Below, piece after piece: positions 77 to 8,084 of a stretch of 8,084 nt of DNA. A program made the position numbers and the translations under genes. Position 1 is the stretch's first letter, and each line of letters begins with the position of its first letter. Below the pieces are notes generated by a model. It had not been told where the DNA came from and ran no database searches. It saw only the letters and a list, made by a program, of their open reading frames with translations. Location: assembly GCA_016209865.1 (NCBI GenBank), contig JACQVL010000193.1, positions 1 to 8,084 on the forward strand, written 5' to 3'. This DNA is from Candidatus Latescibacterota bacterium (lineage in GTDB: Bacteria > JAAXHH01 > JACQVL01).

Positions 77-84
77 AAAGGAAG
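77..84 (+). promoter_or_regulatory. Ribosome binding site deciding the radical SAM start
   Basis: AAAGGAAG lies 8 bases upstream of the ATG at 93. The in-frame GTG at 84 overlaps this Shine-Dalgarno-like sequence and so has no site of its own. This favours ATG 93 over the longer reading. Confidence 0.6.
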
Positions 85-92
85 TGATTCCC

Positions 93-1268
93 ATGATTGC
101 TTACCGGAACCTCGCCCGTACCGTCCATAAAGCCGTAACCCAGCCCCGGTACGCCTACCAGGCGTTCCAGGCGCGGTTCAAATCGTACCTCTCCTACCGC
201 CGGGACGACGGCGTCAGCGCCCCGCCGGAGACGGTCTCCCTGTTCCTCACCTTCCGGTGCAACCTCCGCTGCCACATGTGCGGCCAGTGGGGCGAGACCG
301 GGGCGTTTAAGGAGATGCCGGGGGAGACGCTGCGGAGCGGGCTGTCTCTGGACGAGATCAAAGCCCTCGTCGATGACGTCGCCTCGTTCTCCCGGCATCC
401 GACGTTCACTCTCTTCGGAGGAGAGCCCACCATCTACCGGGACTGGGTTGAGGTCGTCCGGTACATCAAGCGCAAGGGCCTCCGGTGCAACATGGTGACG
501 AACGGGATGCTCCTGGCAAAAGCCGCCGACGACCTCGTCCAGATGAAGATGGATGAGATCATCCTGTCGTTAGACGGGGATGAAGAGGTGCACGACCGGA
601 CCCGAGGGCTGCAAGGGACGTTCAAGCGGATGATCGAAGGCCTGCAGGCCATCCACGAGGCCAAGCGCGCCCGGCACACCTCGTCCCCAGTCATCACCGT
701 TAACTCCACGATGTGCGAGACGAACTATCGCGACCTGCCGGGCGTCCTGAACGGCGCGGAGAAATTGGGCGCGCAGATCGTCACCTTCCATCACCTGCTG
801 TTCCTCTCACGAGAAACGTGCCAGCTCCACAATCAGTTGTACGAGCAGCGCTTCGGCAAGCCTTGCCAGGACTGGTTCGGGTTCGTCCGGGACAGTCTGC
901 CCGACATTGACGTCGAATTCCTGATCGGGCAGATCGAGACGCTGAAGAAGATGCCGTCGAAGATGGCGATCGCGTTCTACCCGAATTTTACCCCCGACGA
1001 GATGCGCCGGTATTACTCCGGGGACGAGTTCGCCCCGACCAGCTACAAAGGGCGATGCTTAAGCCTGTGGATGGCGGCGTACGTCTTCCCCAACGGGGAT
1101 GTCCGGGAATACCACTCGATGGACTACGCGCTCGGCAACATTCGTCAGGCGAAGTTTACCGACATCTGGAACAACGAACGCTACCGGGAGTACCGCAAGG
1201 CGGTGAAAGTCCTCAAGCGGTTCCCCGTCTGCTCACGGGGCTGCACGGAGCTGTACCGGTACGGGTAG
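93..1268 (+). CDS. Radical SAM protein with SPASM/twitch-like C-terminus
   Basis: Predicted S-adenosylmethionine radical enzyme of 391 residues. The signature CxxxCxxC is at C56-C60-C63 (sequence FRCNLRCHMC), which binds the [4Fe-4S] cluster that cleaves SAM. GGEP at 109-112 is the usual SAM-contact motif. The C-terminal third resembles a SPASM/twitch domain: C322 in GRC, a G-N-I motif near 348-350, then C380 and C384 (CxxxC) close to the end, suggesting an auxiliary iron-sulfur cluster. Where SPASM domains usually have 'PC' after the G-D-V turn, this protein reads EYHS (339-342), so one expected cluster cysteine is missing. It is the first gene of a tightly packed polysaccharide cluster. Family membership is firm; the substrate is unknown. 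A sugar, a sugar nucleotide, or a peptide presented by the PqqD-like protein at the far end of the locus are all possible. Confidence 0.9.
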   Translation: MIAYRNLARTVHKAVTQPRYAYQAFQARFKSYLSYRRDDGVSAPPETVSLFLTFRCNLRCHMCGQWGETGAFKEMPGETLRSGLSLDEIKALVDDVASFSRHPTFTLFGGEPTIYRDWVEVVRYIKRKGLRCNMVTNGMLLAKAADDLVQMKMDEIILSLDGDEEVHDRTRGLQGTFKRMIEGLQAIHEAKRARHTSSPVITVNSTMCETNYRDLPGVLNGAEKLGAQIVTFHHLLFLSRETCQLHNQLYEQRFGKPCQDWFGFVRDSLPDIDVEFLIGQIETLKKMPSKMAIAFYPNFTPDEMRRYYSGDEFAPTSYKGRCLSLWMAAYVFPNGDVREYHSMDYALGNIRQAKFTDIWNNERYREYRKAVKVLKRFPVCSRGCTELYRYG

Positions 1269-1280
1269 GACGGAGTCCGG

Positions 1281-2468
1281 ATGCCGACGGAGGGACGACG
1301 CGTCAAGGTCGTGCATCTCATCACCCGGCTCGACCGGGGGGGATCGGCCGAGGTGGTGTTGCAGTTGGCCGCCCGGCTCGACCGTGATCGGTATGACGTG
1401 GAGGTCGTGAGCGGGCGAACGATCGACCCGGTCTGCGATCTCGCGCACTACACGCGGACGACCGGGGTGCCGATCACGATGCTTCCCCGTCTCCGCCGCG
1501 AGGTCGCCCCGGCCGACGACCCGATCGCCTGCGTCCAGGTCTACCGCTACTTGCGGCGCAGCCGGCCGGACCTCGTCCACACCCATTCCTCGAAAGCCGG
1601 GATTGTGGGACGGCTGGCCGCCCGGGCGGCCGGGACGCCGGTCATCGTGCACGCCCCCCACGGGCATGTGTTCTACGGGTACTTCGGACGCCTGGCGACG
1701 CACGCGTTCATCCTGGCAGAACGCCTGACGGCGCGATGGACGGACCGCATCATCACGTTGACGGAACTGGAGAAGCAGGATCATCTCCGCGTCCGGATCG
1801 GACGGCCTGAGCAGTTCGTCCCCATCCCCTGCGGCATCGACCTCTCGCGCTTCTCCGCGGCAGAGCAGGAAGGACGGACGCTCCGGGAAGGCCTTCAACT
1901 CCGTCCCGGCGAGCTGCTCGTCCTGTGGGCCGGCCGGCTCGTCCCGATCAAAGGGTGTGACGCGTTCCTGCGTGCCTGCACGATCGTTGTCCGGCAGCAC
2001 GACACGGCCCGGTTCGTCATCGTCGGGGACGGCCCCCTGGCGGAGTCCCTCCGAAAGATGGCATCCCGACTCGGCCTGGACGACCGGGTGCGGTTCGTAG
2101 GATACCGGTCGGACATCCCCGCCTGGATGTGGGCCGCCGATGTGTTCGTCCTCTCCTCCCTGAACGAGGGCCTGGGGCGAGTGTTACTGGAAGCGATGGC
2201 GTGCCAGACTCCGATCGTGGCCACCGATGTCGGGGGAGTCAGCGAGATCGTCCAGACCGGGGAGACCGGACTGCTCGTCCCGCCGGCCGACCCCGAACGC
2301 TTGGCGGAGGGCATCCTGACGCTCCTGCGTGAGACGGAGCGGGCACGGGCGATGGGCGAGCGGGGGTATCAGCGGGCGCTCGGCTTCGACCTGCGGGTGA
2401 TGGTGGACAGAACCGCGGCGGTGTATGAATCCCTGCTCACGGCCAAAGGAGTGCGGCATGCCGCCTGA
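1281..2468 (+). CDS. GT4-family glycosyltransferase
   Basis: Retaining GT-B-fold glycosyltransferase of 395 residues, the usual length for family GT4. It transfers a sugar from a nucleotide donor to a growing glycan on the cytoplasmic face of the membrane. The N-terminal acceptor half begins with a beta strand and a glycine-rich turn (LDRGGSAE, 17-24) and contains THSSKAG (101-107) and HAPHGHVFYGYF (124-135), both typical of capsule and exopolysaccharide GT4 enzymes. The C-terminal donor half has AGRLVPIKG (217-225), VGDGP (248-252) and the EX7E motif E296...E304 in EGLGRVLLE, followed by the GG-SEIV and GLLVPP elements. A CGGAG Shine-Dalgarno lies 5 bases before ATG 1281, 12 bases after the radical SAM stop. 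Its last 11 bases overlap the next gene, which implies translational coupling. Donor and acceptor cannot be told from sequence. Confidence 0.93.
   Translation: MPTEGRRVKVVHLITRLDRGGSAEVVLQLAARLDRDRYDVEVVSGRTIDPVCDLAHYTRTTGVPITMLPRLRREVAPADDPIACVQVYRYLRRSRPDLVHTHSSKAGIVGRLAARAAGTPVIVHAPHGHVFYGYFGRLATHAFILAERLTARWTDRIITLTELEKQDHLRVRIGRPEQFVPIPCGIDLSRFSAAEQEGRTLREGLQLRPGELLVLWAGRLVPIKGCDAFLRACTIVVRQHDTARFVIVGDGPLAESLRKMASRLGLDDRVRFVGYRSDIPAWMWAADVFVLSSLNEGLGRVLLEAMACQTPIVATDVGGVSEIVQTGETGLLVPPADPERLAEGILTLLRETERARAMGERGYQRALGFDLRVMVDRTAAVYESLLTAKGVRHAA
2445..2451 (+). promoter_or_regulatory. Ribosome binding site for the PHP-like gene
   Basis: AAAGGAG sits inside the 3' end of the glycosyltransferase gene, 6 bases before ATG 2458. 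It fixes the start at 2458 rather than at the in-frame ATG 2425. The shorter start also places a clean signal peptide at the N-terminus. Confidence 0.7.
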
Positions 2469-4011
2469 GACGACGCGCACGCGCTCCGCCCGCCTGCGGG
2501 GCCTGAGCCTCTGCCTGGCGCTCCTCCTCTCCGGGCTTGCCCACGCCGGCCCGGCTCAGGTGCCGGGCGTGGTGCATGTCGACATCGATATCGGGTCGGA
2601 CCGTCTGACCGTCCCCCAACTGACCGACCTGACTCACCAGGCCCGCTTAGGCGTCATCGTCTTCACCGACCATGACAACGCGGTAGTGGAATACGGACTC
2701 CCGCCGTTCCGCCGTCTCCTGAAGAAACAGGAATCCCGCCCCTCCATCCAGGCGTACGGCGCTCAGCGGTACGTGGAGACGATCCGGATGGCCGGGGATT
2801 ACACGCCGGGAGTCATCACGATCGACGGCACGGAAGCGGCGCCCGCGTATTACTGGGAGGGGAACGTCTGGGGGGGACGGCCGTTAGCCAGGAATATCCA
2901 CAAACATCTGCTCGTCATCGGGCTTCCGGACCCCAAAGACTACGAACGACTTCCGTCATTGGCGACCGGCTTTCCCCAGCCGTTCGGCCTCCGGTGCCTG
3001 GTGAGCCTGTGGCCCCTGCCCGTCGCGCTCGCGGGCCTCACGATGGTCGTCCTGTCGCGCCGGCGGGCCCGGCTGGAAGGGGAAGCCGGAAACCCCATGC
3101 CGGGGGTGGCCGTGACGATCATCGGGGCGGCGTTCCTGGCGAACAGCTTCCCCCTGTGCTCGCCGTACGACCAGTACCACGGCGACCCGGGGGACGGCCC
3201 GTACCAGGCGGTGATCGATTACGCGAACGCCCGTGGCGCGATGACGTTCTGGGCGCATCCGGAGGTCATGCAGCGGTTGTCCGCGCCCGTCCCGTGGCCG
3301 GTGTCGATGTTCGCAGACAGCGTCGTCTTCGAGACGCTCCCGTATACGACCGCGCTGTCGACGACGTCTGAGTACACCGGGTTCGCCATCTTTCAGGAGG
3401 GTCTGCGCGTCATCGGCAAGCCGGGCGGCGTCTGGGACCAGGTGCTCATCGAGTACTGCGCGGGCGCCCGGCGCCGTCCCGTCTGGGCAATCGGGGAGGC
3501 GGATTTCGAGGACCGCGCAATCGCCAACCCGAAGGAGGACCTCGAAGCCTGCCAGACCGTCTTCCTCTTGAAGGAACGGAGCCGGGCCGGGGTGCTGGAG
3601 GCGCTGCGGTCGGGGACGATGTACGCGCGACGCGCGCCCGGCCATCTCTTGACCCTGCGCGATTTTCGCGTGACGGACGGCGCGGGACAGACCGCCGCCA
3701 CGATGGGCGGGCACGTGACCCTGTCGGAGAGCCCGCACGTTCGCATCGACTTGGGGGTTCAGGATTCCAGTCCGCGCAACCTCGTCATCCAGGTCATCCG
3801 TGACGGCCGGGTCATCCGGATGATTCCGGCGGCCGGGGACACGACGATCACGTTCGAGGATCGGGTCGTCGGGGGTGAGGGGACGACGTTCTACCGGTTG
3901 CTCGTGACGCTGGACGACTGGGAGGTGTTAGCGTCCAACCCGATCTTCGTCACCATCCGGCCACGGTCCGCCCTCCAGCGCCCCGGGTCGGCCGGGCGAG
4001 CGGGCGTATGA
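2458..4011 (+). CDS. Exported PHP-like protein split by a two-helix membrane hairpin
   Basis: 517 residues. A basic N-terminus (RTRSARLR) and hydrophobic core end at AHA (28-30), a likely Sec signal peptide. The mature part opens like a PHP metal-dependent phosphoesterase: VHVDID (39-44), FTDHD (69-73), GTE (124-126), H150 in HLLVIG, H267 in WAHPE and GEADFED (346-352). The usual motif I HxH reads H40-V-D42, and the D-x-H near the end reads D349-F-E351, so two expected histidine ligands are acidic. Residues about 180-200 and 215-235 form two hydrophobic helices separated by an RRRAR-rich loop. By the positive-inside rule this loop is cytoplasmic, so both domain halves face the periplasm. Residues about 395-510 look like a beta-sandwich tail. 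The gene overlaps both neighbours (11 and 4 bases). PHP membership is from motifs read by eye. Phosphoesterase, pyrophosphatase or non-catalytic roles in glycan handling are all open. Confidence 0.75.
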   Translation: MPPETTRTRSARLRGLSLCLALLLSGLAHAGPAQVPGVVHVDIDIGSDRLTVPQLTDLTHQARLGVIVFTDHDNAVVEYGLPPFRRLLKKQESRPSIQAYGAQRYVETIRMAGDYTPGVITIDGTEAAPAYYWEGNVWGGRPLARNIHKHLLVIGLPDPKDYERLPSLATGFPQPFGLRCLVSLWPLPVALAGLTMVVLSRRRARLEGEAGNPMPGVAVTIIGAAFLANSFPLCSPYDQYHGDPGDGPYQAVIDYANARGAMTFWAHPEVMQRLSAPVPWPVSMFADSVVFETLPYTTALSTTSEYTGFAIFQEGLRVIGKPGGVWDQVLIEYCAGARRRPVWAIGEADFEDRAIANPKEDLEACQTVFLLKERSRAGVLEALRSGTMYARRAPGHLLTLRDFRVTDGAGQTAATMGGHVTLSESPHVRIDLGVQDSSPRNLVIQVIRDGRVIRMIPAAGDTTITFEDRVVGGEGTTFYRLLVTLDDWEVLASNPIFVTIRPRSALQRPGSAGRAGV

Positions 4012-4691
4012 TCGTCTCCATCCATCAGCCCCATTTCCTCCCATGGCTGGGGTTCTTCGAGAAAGTCGACCGGGCGGACGTGTTCATCCTGTTAGACAAC
4101 GTCCAGTTCGAGAAGAACGGGTGGCAGAATCGCAACCGGATCAAGGGGGCGAACGGGTGGCAGTGGCTGACGGTGCCGGTCTACCAGCGGTTTCCCCAGA
4201 CGATCGCGGAGACGATGGTCAACAACACTGTCGACTGGCGGCGGAAGCACTGGAACGGGATCGTCTCGAATTACAGCCGGGCGCCGTATTTTCATGAATT
4301 ACGACCGCCCTTCGAGGAGGCGTACCGCCGGTCCTGGGACCGGCTGGTCGACCTGAACATCCATCTCCTGACGGTGGCGTTCGACCTCTTAGGGCTGCAC
4401 CGGCGGGTGTGTCTGGCGTCCGAGTATGCCGCCAGTCAGACCCCGTCCGAACGCTTAGCCGACCTGTGCGCCGCCGTCGGGGGGGATGTCTACCTGGCTG
4501 GAGAAGGGGGACACACCTACCTGGACCTCCGGCCGTTCGAGGAGAAAGGCATCCGCGTCGAATTCCAGCAATTCCAGCACCCCGTTTATCCCCAGTTGTT
4601 CGGGGCGTTTGAAGCGCATCTGTCGGTCATCGACCTGTTGTTCAACTGCGGGGGGCAGAGTCTGGACATCATCCGGGGACGGATTCGCTGA
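4008..4691 (+). CDS. WbqC-family protein
   Basis: 227 residues, matching the WbqC-like family in length and motifs. The N-terminal signature IHQPHFLPW (5-13) is followed by GFFEKVDRADVFILLDNVQF, spanning residues 15-34, and NGWQNRNRIK (37-46). The C-terminal half carries HPVYPQ (191-196) and LSVIDLLFNCG (205-215), also typical. Family members are found in O-antigen, capsule and exopolysaccharide loci, often near sugar aminotransferases and methyltransferases, but I know of no settled enzymatic reaction. No signal peptide or membrane segment is seen, so the protein is probably cytoplasmic. The start codon shares ATGA with the stop of the preceding gene, a classic termination-reinitiation junction that ties its expression to the PHP-like protein. 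Family assignment is strong; function is not known. Confidence 0.9.
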   Translation: MIVSIHQPHFLPWLGFFEKVDRADVFILLDNVQFEKNGWQNRNRIKGANGWQWLTVPVYQRFPQTIAETMVNNTVDWRRKHWNGIVSNYSRAPYFHELRPPFEEAYRRSWDRLVDLNIHLLTVAFDLLGLHRRVCLASEYAASQTPSERLADLCAAVGGDVYLAGEGGHTYLDLRPFEEKGIRVEFQQFQHPVYPQLFGAFEAHLSVIDLLFNCGGQSLDIIRGRIR

Positions 4692-4706
4692 GGGAGCACC
4701 CATCGT

Positions 4707-5339
4707 ATGCACATCCTGGCCATCGGCTCGCATCCGGATGACATCGAGTACGGATGCGGGGGGACGCTCATCAAGTACGCCCGACAAGGGCATGGAGTCC
4801 ACCTGTTCGTGGCGACCTGCGGGAGCTTCGGGGGAGACCCGGAGGTCCGGCACCGGGAGCAACTCCGATCCGCAGAAATCCTGGGCGTCACGGAGGTGTT
4901 CTGGGGAGAGTACACCGATACGCAAATCCCGTTGAGCCAGGAGTTGATCGCCCGGCTGGAGCAGGTCATCCGGCAGGTCAAACCCCATTTCATCTTCGTC
5001 CACTCCCCAGAGGACACGCATCAGGATCACCGGACGCTGTCGAGCTGTACGATTTCGGCCACACGGTACATCCCGAACGTGCTCTTCTACGAGGGGCCGA
5101 CGACGCAGCATTTTCTGCCGACCGTCTACGTGGATATCGACGCGACGCTGGAAGACAAAATCGAGCTACTCCTCGCCCACCGGTCGCAGGTGGCGAAACT
5201 CTACAACAAGGATATTCAGGACCTGACGATCATCGAAAGCGCCCGGTCGTGCGCGAATTTCCGGGGCGTCCAGAGCCGGGTGAGGTACGCGGAAGGGTTT
5301 GCCCCCCTTCGGCTGTTCATTAATATTGGGGGGGAATGA
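4707..5339 (+). CDS. PIG-L/LmbE-type zinc-dependent N-deacetylase
   Basis: 210 residues, slightly short for the family. The zinc-binding motif HPDD is at 9-12 (GSHPDDIEYGCGGTL), the R-HREQ element at 47-52 matches the conserved helix, and HQDH at 105-108 supplies the second histidine pair. AEGF (195-198) is the usual C-terminal signature. Known members remove N-acetyl groups from GlcNAc in GPI precursors, mycothiol and bacillithiol precursors, or from amino sugars in antibiotic and glycan pathways. Here, next to a WecA-like enzyme and glycosyltransferase, a sugar-nucleotide or lipid-linked N-acetylhexosamine is the likely substrate (inference). The protein is cytoplasmic, with no signal peptide. 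GAGGGAG lies about 10 bases before the ATG, 15 bases after the WbqC stop. The last codons (INIGGE) run into a G-rich repeat region. Confidence 0.92.
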   Translation: MHILAIGSHPDDIEYGCGGTLIKYARQGHGVHLFVATCGSFGGDPEVRHREQLRSAEILGVTEVFWGEYTDTQIPLSQELIARLEQVIRQVKPHFIFVHSPEDTHQDHRTLSSCTISATRYIPNVLFYEGPTTQHFLPTVYVDIDATLEDKIELLLAHRSQVAKLYNKDIQDLTIIESARSCANFRGVQSRVRYAEGFAPLRLFINIGGE

Positions 5340-5360
5340 GTGGGGGAGTGGGAGTATGGG
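5328..5360 (+). other. Canonical G-quadruplex motif across the deacetylase stop codon
   Basis: Four G-tracts (7, 5, 3 and 3 bases) are separated by loops of 7, 3 and 5 bases, fitting the G3+N1-7 rule on the coding strand. The first tract encodes the final glycines and the TGA stop (5337-5339) lies in the first loop. It could form in the mRNA as well as in DNA. Folding is predicted only from the pattern. Confidence 0.55.
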
Positions 5361-5406
5361 AGAGTATGAGCCTCTGATCTGTTTCCCCCATACGCCCATA
5401 CTCCCA
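5349..5406. repeat. Inverted repeat in the 5340-5502 gap
   Basis: TGGGAGTATGGG (5349-5360) is the exact reverse complement of CCCATACTCCCA, which occurs at 5395-5406 and again at 5434-5445. The left arm can therefore pair with either right arm, giving two mutually exclusive 12-bp stems. Each right arm is followed within a few bases by a T-run (5413-5416 and 5452-5456). The arrangement could act as a weak terminator or attenuator between the two gene blocks, or may only be part of the repeat element. Confidence 0.5.
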
Positions 5407-5455
5407 TACATCTTTTCCTCCGTCCCCCATACGCCCATACTCCCATACGTCTTTT
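5384..5455. repeat. Two near-identical 33-base direct repeats
   Basis: Bases 5384-5416 and 5423-5455 match at 32 of 33 positions with a 39-base period; the only difference is A5410 versus G5449. The unit contains the internal near-repeat CCCATAC(G/T)CCCATACTCCC and ends in TCTTTT. The two copies fill most of the 163-base gap between the deacetylase and aminotransferase genes. They keep the aminotransferase frame open upstream, creating a false N-terminal extension rich in HTPILPY. Two copies with a 6-base separation do not make a CRISPR array. No flanking transposase is visible. Confidence 0.85.
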
Positions 5456-5485
5456 TCCCTTTCGCCTTTTCGCCCGGCAGGGAAG

Positions 5486-5492
5486 GGAGGAG
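5486..5492 (+). promoter_or_regulatory. Ribosome binding site deciding the aminotransferase start
   Basis: GGAGGAG lies 10 bases upstream of ATG 5503, with a further AGGGG at 5494-5498. This and the start of family homology (IPHSRPSLG) place the true start at 5503, not at the in-frame ATG 5299 inside the preceding gene. Confidence 0.7.
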
Positions 5493-5502
5493 CAGGGGTG
5501 TC

Positions 5503-6552
5503 ATGATTCCCCATTCCCGGCCGTCCTTAGGGCCGGACGAAGCGGAGGTCGCAGCCCAGGTCATCAGGTCGGGCTGGGTCGCCCAGGGACCGCAGACCGA
5601 GGGGTTTGAGGAGGACATCGCCCGGCAGGCCGGGATGGCCTGGGGGACGGCGACCAGCTCCGGGACGGCGGCGTTGCACTTAGCGCTCTTAGGGATCGGC
5701 GCAGGACCGGGGGACCGGGTCGTCATCCCGAGTTATGTGTGTGTCGCGCTGCTCCACGCCGTCCGGTACGTCGGGGCCGAGCCGGTCATCGTCGACGTTG
5801 ATCCGGAGACGATGAACCTCGACCCGGACGCGCTCCGGCGGGCCGCCCCCGGCCGGTTGAAGGCGGTCATCCTCCCCCATCTCTTCGGGCTGCCCGCCGA
5901 GGTGGACGCGATCACCGCGATGGGGGCGCCGGTGATCGAGGACTGCGCGCACGCGGTTGGGGCGACGGTGAACGGCCGGCCGGTCGGCGGGCTGGGGACG
6001 CTGTCGATCTATTCGTTTTACGCCACTAAGATGATGACGACGGGAGAAGGCGGGATGGTCGTCGGCCAAGACTCGTCCATCGAGGAGCGAGTCCGGGGGC
6101 TGCGGGACTACGATCGGCCGGACGCCAGCACGATACGGTTCAATTACAAGATGACGGACATCCAGGCGGCAATCGGGCGCGTCCAGCTCCGGCGACTGCC
6201 GTCGTTCCTCGACCGGCGCCGGCAGGTCGCCCAGGTCTACGATGAACGATTCCAGAGCCTCCATCTGGGGCTTCCGGCCGGACGCCCCGGGGCTCCACAT
6301 GCGTACTACCGGTACATCGTGCGGATGAACGGCAACGTCGCTGAGACGATCGCCCGTCTGGACGAGGCCGGGGTGGCGTGCCGGCGCCCGGTCGCCCAGC
6401 CGCTCCACCGCCTGGTCGGCGGGCCGCCCTGTCCCGGCGCGGACGCGGCGTTCGACCGGGCGTTGTCCATTCCCATCTACCCGACCCTGACGGACGAAGA
6501 GGTCGAGATGGTCAGCCAGCGAGTCTCCCGCACGCTGGCGAACAGGCGGTGA
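5503..6552 (+). CDS. DegT/DnrJ/EryC1/StrS-family sugar aminotransferase
   Basis: PLP-dependent transaminase of 349 residues that would convert a keto-sugar nucleotide to an amino sugar, with glutamate as the usual amino donor. Visible motifs are the N-terminal SRPSLGPDE (5-13), SGWVAQGPQ (23-31) typical of the family, SSGTAALHL for PLP-phosphate binding (52-60), D147 in IEDCAHA, which contacts the pyridine nitrogen, and K176 in SFYATKMMTTGEGG as the Schiff-base lysine. NYKMTDIQAAIG (214-225) and the C-terminal P-x-Y-P-TLT are also conserved. The protein is slightly shorter than common members (about 360-400). The start at 5503 is chosen from the ribosome binding site and homology. No partner dehydratase or epimerase is in the window, so the keto-sugar must come from genes elsewhere. 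The repeat-rich 163-base gap upstream could give it its own expression unit. Confidence 0.92.
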   Translation: MIPHSRPSLGPDEAEVAAQVIRSGWVAQGPQTEGFEEDIARQAGMAWGTATSSGTAALHLALLGIGAGPGDRVVIPSYVCVALLHAVRYVGAEPVIVDVDPETMNLDPDALRRAAPGRLKAVILPHLFGLPAEVDAITAMGAPVIEDCAHAVGATVNGRPVGGLGTLSIYSFYATKMMTTGEGGMVVGQDSSIEERVRGLRDYDRPDASTIRFNYKMTDIQAAIGRVQLRRLPSFLDRRRQVAQVYDERFQSLHLGLPAGRPGAPHAYYRYIVRMNGNVAETIARLDEAGVACRRPVAQPLHRLVGGPPCPGADAAFDRALSIPIYPTLTDEEVEMVSQRVSRTLANRR

Positions 6553-6559
6553 ACACGTC

Positions 6560-7735
6560 ATGGATCACGTCGAAGTTGTCGCCAAGCCTGAATACCACAG
6601 ACCCGCCTGGGTTGTGATCGCCATGACTGGCGCGCCGACCGCGCTCGTCCTGATCGTCCTGCTGACGCAGGATGTCCGGGCCTGGTTTTTCTCCGGGCCC
6701 AACCTGCGGGTGGCATACTTATTGCTTTTTTCATTCGGGACGGCGTACCTGGCCACCCCGATCGCCGGAGTGATCGCGCAGTGGACCGGAGTGATGGACT
6801 ACCCGGCGCAACGGAAGATGCACCAGGCACCGACCCCGCTGTTGGGCGGTCTGGCCATCTATACCGCGTTCGCCATGACGATCTTCGTCAATAACCTGTA
6901 TACGGTCGAACTGAAGAGCGTGGCGATCGCGGCGACCCTGGTGTTCTGCATCGGACTGCTCGACGACATCCGGCCGTTGAGCGCCTGGTCGCGGTTAGGG
7001 GTGCAACTCCTCGGGGTGGGGATCATGATCGGCTACGGGGTCCGGGTGAGCTTCATGCCGCCCTCCTGGTGGGGGGACACACTGGAGGTCGTGTTCACCG
7101 TCATCTGGGTCATCGGCATCACGAACGCGATCAACCTGATCGACGGACTGGACGGGCTGGCGTCCGGGTCGGTGATGATCAACGCGGCGTTCTTCAGCCT
7201 GATCGCCGTGCAGACGAGCCAGCCGTACATGCGGTTTCTGTCGATCGCGCTCGCCGGGAGCTGTCTGGGGTTCCTCCCGTACAACCTCAGACCGCGCAGA
7301 CCGGCGTCGATTTTCTTAGGGGACGGCGGCAGCAATTTCATCGGGTTCACGATCGCGGCGCTGGGGGTTCTGGGGGATTGGGGCACCAACAGCTCTGTCG
7401 ACCTGATCACCCCCATCCTGATCCTCGGCGTCCCGATCTTCGACATGACGTTGACGACTATCTTGCGCATTAAAGATGGCCGGGTCCGGTCCCTCTCCCA
7501 ATGGCTGCATTGTACCGGCAAAGACCACTTTCACCACCGGCTGGTCGAGATCGGCCTCAGCCCTCGACTGGCGGTCTTCACGATCTTCTTGATTTCCGTC
7601 ACCCTGGGGATCAGCGCGGCCGTCCTCCGGCGCGCCGAAGGGATCGACGCGCTTCTGCTGTTGGGCCAGGCGATCCTGATGTTCAGCATGATCGGCTATT
7701 TCATGGTGTTCGTGAAGCAGCAGTATCGTCTATGA
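6560..7735 (+). CDS. WecA/TagO-type polyprenyl-phosphate sugar-1-phosphate transferase
   Basis: Polytopic membrane enzyme of 391 residues in the MraY/WecA/TagO superfamily. It would transfer a sugar-1-phosphate (GlcNAc-1-P in WecA) from UDP-sugar to undecaprenyl phosphate, the first committed step of lipid-linked glycan assembly. Motifs in order: RKMHQAPTPLLGG (85-97), the Mg-binding GLLDD (132-136), NAINLIDGLDGLASG (189-203), FLGDGGSNFIGF (252-263) and the cytoplasmic HxHH-type DHFHH (322-326). About ten or more hydrophobic helices alternate with short loops. An additional hydrophobic helix near 17-36 precedes the segment (about 49-75) that usually opens the family. The gene starts 7 bases after the aminotransferase stop, with a weak GGCGGTGA upstream. 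Sugar specificity is inferred only from family resemblance. Confidence 0.93.
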   Translation: MDHVEVVAKPEYHRPAWVVIAMTGAPTALVLIVLLTQDVRAWFFSGPNLRVAYLLLFSFGTAYLATPIAGVIAQWTGVMDYPAQRKMHQAPTPLLGGLAIYTAFAMTIFVNNLYTVELKSVAIAATLVFCIGLLDDIRPLSAWSRLGVQLLGVGIMIGYGVRVSFMPPSWWGDTLEVVFTVIWVIGITNAINLIDGLDGLASGSVMINAAFFSLIAVQTSQPYMRFLSIALAGSCLGFLPYNLRPRRPASIFLGDGGSNFIGFTIAALGVLGDWGTNSSVDLITPILILGVPIFDMTLTTILRIKDGRVRSLSQWLHCTGKDHFHHRLVEIGLSPRLAVFTIFLISVTLGISAAVLRRAEGIDALLLLGQAILMFSMIGYFMVFVKQQYRL

Positions 7736-7742
7736 GGATGGT

Positions 7743-8039
7743 ATGAGAATTCGAATCGATACAGAACGGGTGGTGTGGAGGACGCTCAAGGATGACCTCG
7801 TCCTGCTGCACCTGGAGACGGGCGCGTACTACACCCTGAACGAGACGGGTGCGCTCATCTGGCAGGGCCTGGTGGACGGCCGGCCGTATCCCGACATCAT
7901 CGCGGCGATCACCAGCACGTACGAGGTGGACGAGCGCGCCGCGCAGCAAGATTTTGAACGGCTCGTCAATGAACTGACCGGCCAGGGGCTGGTCGAATTG
8001 GTCGATGACGATGTAGGGGCGAAGCCTGACACTCTCTAA
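7743..8039 (+). CDS. PqqD-family small protein (RiPP recognition element-like)
   Basis: 98 residues with the PqqD pattern: hydrophobic strands at the start, LETGAYYTLNETGALIW (24-40) and then L43, an I-x-x-I helix near 52-56, Y60-E-V-D before the second helix, and a final L-x-x-QGLVEL (78-86). PqqD and related domains are winged-helix folds that bind leader peptides and deliver them to radical SAM or other modifying enzymes. Stand-alone copies also occur in polysaccharide loci with lasso-peptide B2-like proteases and asparagine synthetase-like proteins, so such genes may lie downstream. It starts 7 bases after the WecA-like stop with GAGG upstream. The last eight codons (VGAKPDTL) and the stop come from an inverted repeat, so the original C-terminus appears to have been replaced. 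Confidence 0.85.
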   Translation: MRIRIDTERVVWRTLKDDLVLLHLETGAYYTLNETGALIWQGLVDGRPYPDIIAAITSTYEVDERAAQQDFERLVNELTGQGLVELVDDDVGAKPDTL

Positions 8040-8057: not shown

Positions 8058-8084
8058 GATCACGATAGAAACGAGGCCACACGA

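Follow-up and report, generated by a model that had tools for sequence, protein, structure and literature searches.

Gene content of the window

The window, meaning the whole stretch of DNA analysed here (8,084 nucleotides), spans the full length of one contig from the draft genome of Candidatus Latescibacterota bacterium (G000:C142; 3.75 Mb, 83% complete). Its eight genes are all on the forward strand:

84..1268, +, radical SAM/SPASM protein (PF04055, PF13186)
1281..2468, +, GT4 glycosyltransferase (PF00534, 8.4e-46; TIGR03088-like, 220 bits)
2458..4011, +, PHP-hairpin protein P0001, 517 aa plus stop codon (open reading frame; full-length homologues in at least ten phyla)
4008..4691, +, WbqC-family protein (PF08889, 9.9e-78)
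4707..5339, +, PIG-L deacetylase (PF02585, 1.1e-26)
5299..6552, +, DegT/DnrJ/EryC1 sugar aminotransferase (PF01041, 1.1e-88)
6560..7735, +, WecA/MraY-like polyprenyl-phosphate glycosyl-1-phosphate transferase (PF00953, 6.3e-36; WecA model, 2.6e-38)
7743..8039, +, PqqD-like protein (PF05402, 1.7e-18)

The ATG of the PHP-hairpin gene (2458) lies within the final codons of the GT4 gene, with an overlap of 11 bp, and a second in-frame ATG is present at 2425. The parts of a Wzy-dependent locus found on the contig, which ends at 8084, are the WecA-like and GT4 genes only. No exosortase (TIGR02602) was found in the window's genome at its 83% completeness, and the label 'exosortase system' was dropped for the window on that ground.

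Architecture and predicted fold of P0001

The following segments were assigned within P0001:

2458..2547, +, predicted signal peptide, residues 1-30 (n-region RTRSARLR; cleavage after AHA, before G)
2548..3006, +, PHP barrel part 1, residues 31-183 (H40-x-D42, D71-H72, E126, Y131, W133, H150; AF2 model, structure match, ligand counts)
3007..3156, +, transmembrane hairpin, residues 184-233 (TM1 about 184-200, RRRAR 201-205, TM2 about 215-233)
3157..3642, +, PHP barrel part 2, residues 234-395 (W265-A-H267, W326-D327, D349-x-E351; AF2 model, structure match, ligand counts)
3166..3207, +, YDQYHGD...PYQ junction, residues 237-250, at the return of TM2 into the barrel (conservation)
3643..3960, +, C-terminal Ig-like beta domain, residues 396-501, ending SNPIFV (AF2 secondary structure)

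A first-pass annotation of the window had already described the signal peptide, the PHP motifs on both sides of the hairpin, and two hydrophobic helices (placed at about 180-200 and 215-235) with RRRAR between them, and the assignments above bear it out on each point. The AF2 model of P0001, built from an input alignment of 53 sequences, had a mean pLDDT of 91.2 and a pTM of 0.88, and its hairpin helices span residues 186-207 and 214-229. Residues 32..395 of the model matched 2anu_F with a Z score of 18.7 (213 residues aligned, rmsd 3.0 A); other structure matches of the barrel were 3e38 (Z 17.6), 3e0f (15.8), and 2yb1 (12.4), and the two-domain PHP protein 3e38 aligned with residues 31..435. 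By these matches, P0001 has the distorted beta/alpha barrel of the PHP superfamily. Because residues 32-395 superpose on single PHP barrels, both flanks of the hairpin form one barrel, as had been proposed, and the match across the hairpin rules out two separate domains. Matches of the Ig-like domain to Wzt carbohydrate-binding domains (Z about 10) were not used, since many unrelated Ig-like folds scored about 9.

P0001 had no Pfam match, PF02811 (PHP) included; that model was matched by 33 of 53 aligned members at E<=0.01. The only family match of P0001 was to the CehA/McbA model NF038032 (47.4 bits, E 1.7e-12), below its cut-off of 80 bits, and this NCBIfam model was matched by 53/53 aligned members at E<=0.01. 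Profile homology and the order of domains, PHP and then a C-terminal beta domain, give P0001 a CehA/McbA-type layout. Matches of seven members to the LiaI/LiaF transmembrane Pfam models were read as generic hydrophobic helices.

Distribution, topology, and history of the hairpin

A genome scan identified 80 homologue loci, and the hairpin was present at the same place in 79 of them. The groups represented were Zixibacteria, Latescibacterota, Poribacteria, Planctomycetota, Nitrospinota, Nitrospirota, Deltaproteobacteria groups, Omnitrophota, Elusimicrobiota, Aminicenantes, Marinimicrobia, and Calditrichota, at least ten phyla in total by the submitters' labels. Relatives of P0001 were not found on viral contigs. 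In the nearest homologue (L021:3-1700, the same gene as L009), an in-frame TAA follows WAIG at the position of Glu347 in P0001, so that either the gene is broken or the sequence contains an error.

A hydrophobic N-terminal segment precedes motif I in 85 of 88 aligned rows, and the inter-helix loop carries a net positive charge in 78 of 84 rows and a negative one in none (0/84). A signal peptide together with a positive loop predicts, by the positive-inside rule, that both halves of the barrel lie outside and the loop inside. The barrel is thus predicted from sequence to face the periplasm, the same outer-face topology that had been suggested at first reading. The hairpin itself is the least conserved region of the alignment, and the YDQYHGD...PYQ junction has the highest average conservation.

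A tree was built from 83 family rows and eight hairpin-less outgroup proteins, with the hairpin columns left out. The split between family and outgroup had a support of 100/100, and the state of the hairpin required three changes, most simply one gain followed by two nested losses. The losses are at L072, inside an Omnitrophota/Elusimicrobiota group, and at L013, beside L044. Both proteins retain the junction motif (DQYHGD/NQYQGD...PYQ), which supports their derivation from a form with the hairpin. The tree and the conservation in 79/80 loci rule out an isolated insertion in one genome, the outcome that would have undone the original proposal. The distant hairpin-less relatives come from one other phylum and look exported, several having lipobox-like N-termini. 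Tandem arrays of such hairpin-less exported PHP proteins were observed in that one phylum at L102-L111 (G061:C37, G060:C557) and L015/L018 (G055:C125).

A conserved gene cassette

A GT4 gene lies directly upstream of the PHP-hairpin gene at 31 of the 77 loci with an upstream gene, and a WbqC gene directly downstream at 29 of 76. Within six genes, WbqC was found at 43/81 loci, PIG-L at 35/81, and radical SAM at 24/81; the linkage to WbqC extends over about ten phyla. The cassette order GT4-PHP-WbqC-PIG-L-DegT-WecA recurs across phyla, and L012 (full ligand set), L013 (hairpin-less), and L014 (very divergent) all have it, with no more than small insertions. The glycan locus recognized around the PHP-hairpin gene in the first-pass annotation is therefore a cassette conserved in its homologues.

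Wza-, Wzc/PCP-, and Wzy-like genes adjoin the cassette at L012 and were also found at the related locus L131; homologues of Wza, Wzc, and Wzy in some loci suggest that the cassette serves exopolysaccharide assembly. Of 109 neighbours scanned, 10 were TIGR03015-like ATPases and seven TIGR03108-like amidotransferases. Further neighbours of the cassette were methyltransferases, heptosyltransferases, a carbamoyltransferase (8 loci), and a polysaccharide deacetylase. WbqC, an uncharacterised family, and PIG-L (4008-5339 in the window) are adjacent in most cassettes of about ten phyla, which suggests a joint step of sugar modification. Within the literature collection searched, no paper combined WbqC with a PHP domain, or a PHP domain with an exosortase.

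The radical SAM/SPASM (84-1268) and PqqD-like (7743-8039) genes of the window stand at the ends of the cassette, and a gene of this kind is also present at L051:9877-10185; the pairing of radical SAM/SPASM with PqqD is otherwise typical of peptide modification. A Nitrospinota clade (13 rows and one labelled Nitrosomonadaceae) lies outside the cassette. Loci of this clade (L011, L076, L085, L088-L091, L093-L100) have neighbour genes on the opposite strand, and the L011 protein is extended at its C-terminus by a segment that weakly matches bacterial SH3.

At L041:6858-9482, GT4 and the PHP-hairpin protein are joined in one frame of 875 aa, with the hydrophobic segment LLAIIFILSILFGG between the two domains, a linker consistent with the glycosyltransferase inside and the PHP domain outside. 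This fusion was seen once, in a Deltaproteobacteria-labelled genome assembled from a metagenome. Among 58 relatives, the four other genomes with matches all have a separate PHP gene, and the fusion was thus rejected as a general arrangement.

Metal site and invariant residues

Motifs, together with an alignment to the outgroup, were used to assign the ligand positions. P0001 has six of the eight canonical ligands, Asp42 replacing the second His of HxH and Glu351 the last His, and so lacks the full four-motif ligand set of the PHP superfamily; H40, H72, E126, H148, H150, H267, and D349 are retained. Since Asp and Glu can bind metal, metal binding through Asp42 and Glu351 is possible, and the site of P0001 may be active.

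Retention across 82 rows of the hairpin family was 44 for H40, 16 for H42, 52 for H72, 82 for E126, 65 each for H150 and H267, 68 for D349, and 27 for H351, and L012 was the only row with all eight canonical ligands. In the hairpin-less outgroup, the eight compared positions were nearly invariant and the PHP set essentially complete. With the exception of E126, each site changed 4-8 times on the tree. The ligands ranked from 22 (E126) to 249 among 468 alignment columns. W133, W326, W343, W265, Y131, Y249, and Q250 were among the ten most conserved columns by a score that favours rare aromatic residues; by plain count, E126, Y131, W133, Y249, Q250, D254, W326, and D327 were invariant.

Replacements at ligand positions in cassette relatives include Arg, Lys, Ser, Tyr, and Leu (for example, DRHE-, HSRE-, and DKYE-types), and the cassette context is unchanged whether the metal site is complete or incomplete; the DRHE- and HSRE-types are still in the cassette. 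The fold, the membrane placement, the aromatic-rich invariant residues, and the cassette are conserved, and a complete metal site is not among these features. The earlier suggestion of a metallo-phosphatase directed at a glycan phosphate finds no support, because the positions that vary in the family include the metal ligands.

Comparison with known systems

The first-pass annotation set the protein apart from soluble, cytoplasmic PHP enzymes. That contrast is overdrawn with regard to export, as exported PHP enzymes are known; the unusual trait is the hairpin within the barrel. The PHP proteins 3e38 (BVU_3505) and 2anu (TM0559) share the same barrel, and 3e38 also has a second domain. In 2anu, motif I is canonical for PHP, unlike that of P0001, and the stretch between the conserved Glu and the AHP motif is about 45 residues long, compared with about 140 in the PHP-hairpin protein, which leaves no room for a hairpin in 2anu. 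The PHP tyrosine phosphatases CpsB, YwqE, and Cap8C, which are cytoplasmic, act on the tail of the BY-kinase and belong to capsule loci. They resemble the PHP-hairpin protein in fold and in their association with a polysaccharide locus, whereas the PHP-hairpin protein is predicted, from its signal peptide and positive loop, to face the periplasm.

The secreted phosphodiesterase Sb-PDE of Sphingobium TCM1, a homodimer of mature 413-aa chains, likewise combines a PHP domain with a signal peptide, which is cleaved; in contrast to the PHP-hairpin protein, its four PHP motifs are conserved and no hairpin is mentioned (PMC5460133). Among the CehA/McbA metallohydrolases (NF038032), the carbaryl hydrolase McbA of strain C5pp is periplasmic, and four His residues were reported to be important in CehA of strain CFD-1 (PMC8292978). 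The PHP-hairpin family shares with this group its profile, its export, and the order of a PHP and then a C-terminal beta domain, and the PHP-hairpin protein differs in the hairpin in its barrel, its eroded HxH and DxH motifs, and its polysaccharide locus. The PHP domain of E. coli DNA polymerase III, which kept its fold after loss of metal ligands (PMC3666897), is a cytoplasmic part of a polymerase, unlike the PHP-hairpin protein. Several loci resemble XrtA/PEP-CTERM exopolysaccharide loci (PMC1569441) in their neighbouring genes (GT4 TIGR03088-like, ATPase TIGR03015-like, and amidotransferase TIGR03108-like). These TIGR-like members, scored one by one, fall below the cut-offs, and the genome of the window differs in having no TIGR02602 match.

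Proposed role and alternatives

The best explanation, to which we give a probability of roughly one half, is that the PHP-hairpin protein is a membrane-anchored, glycan-handling protein facing the periplasm, which began as a CehA/McbA-like hydrolase and today is often a pseudoenzyme. A role in glycan handling with frequent loss of catalysis is favoured because the computed fold, hairpin placement, aromatic residues, and cassette are conserved and a complete metal site is not; the single gain of the hairpin and the loss of ligands were likewise computed. In the mechanism envisaged, the hairpin inserted between the segments bearing H150 and H267 would hold an exported CehA/McbA-type PHP barrel, with its Ig-like domain, on the outer side of the inner membrane. 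There the protein would be a regular part of the machinery that assembles an undecaprenyl-linked exopolysaccharide. At the inner face, the WecA-like enzyme would prime the lipid and GT4 and others would extend it, with sugars modified by PIG-L, DegT, and WbqC. After flipping, the PHP-hairpin protein would encounter the glycan, lipid-linked or still growing, at the surface of the membrane, bind it through an aromatic-rich pocket, and then hand it on or edit it; we infer the glycan as the ligand. The ancestor was probably a metal-dependent hydrolase, and most present members, having partly lost the metal site and, as we infer, catalysis, are likely binding or scaffold proteins. The position of the hairpin between the H150 and H267 segments means that the ligand-bearing mouth of the barrel may face the membrane.

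A bolder version, offered tentatively and with the odds somewhat against it, is that of a conserved pseudo-metalloenzyme whose PHP barrel would receive lipid-linked glycans at the membrane surface or hand them over. It would be in physical contact with GT4 across the membrane and would define a polysaccharide cassette, so far undescribed, that at least ten phyla share.

The main alternative for function is an active metal-dependent hydrolase that uses Asp42 and Glu351 as ligands and whose target is a glycan, lipid-linked or exported, from which it would split a phosphoester, ester, or carbamate; this is in line with the first-pass annotation. It draws on the seven metal-site residues still present in P0001 with acidic residues at the other two sites, on the complete ligand set of L012 in the same cassette, on the precedent of exported PHP hydrolases, and on the carbamoyltransferase genes that adjoin the cassette in eight loci. 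Nevertheless, we regard it as unlikely, given that cassette relatives have Arg, Lys, Ser, Tyr, or Leu at ligand positions, with the DRHE- and HSRE-types still in the cassette, and that of the four His residues reported as important in CehA (PMC8292978), which from motif context apparently belong to HxH, AHP, and DxH, P0001 would keep two. A purely structural part in a polymerisation or export machine, as a Wzy/Wzc accessory whose barrel is a scaffold with no glycan pocket, has a precedent in the retained fold of the Pol III PHP domain (PMC3666897) and would suit those loci in which Wzc-, Wza-, and Wzy-like genes lie close to the cassette. It is considered quite improbable: the invariant E126, Y131, W133, Q250, D254, W326, and D327 lie close in sequence to the metal motifs and the hairpin-barrel junction, which suggests that a pocket has been kept and not a scaffold alone.

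A further alternative bears on the hairpin and could go with either the hydrolase or the scaffold, namely that the hairpin is a plain membrane anchor that replaced the lipid anchor of an ancestral lipoprotein and has no other role. Several outgroup proteins are lipobox-like at the N-terminus and none has a hairpin, the hairpin-less L072 and L013 remain in the cassette with the DQYHGD/NQYQGD motif kept, and no region is less conserved than the hairpin sequence, all of which are in its favour. An anchor could, however, have stayed N-terminal, and placement between ligand segments with near-universal retention suggests that position at the membrane matters, so this reading is judged rather unlikely. 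If it holds, the finding would amount to no more than a different way of anchoring an exported CehA/McbA-like protein.

Implications

P0001 belongs to a widespread and apparently unnamed family. Phyla with few cultured members (Omnitrophota, Aminicenantes, Planctomycetota, Latescibacterota, and others) carry it along with a matching cassette. In this family a membrane hairpin inserted into a catalytic barrel has been maintained since a single gain, and the metal site decays repeatedly while the gene context stays fixed. The invariant residues and the natural fusion make a periplasmic role in polysaccharide assembly testable.
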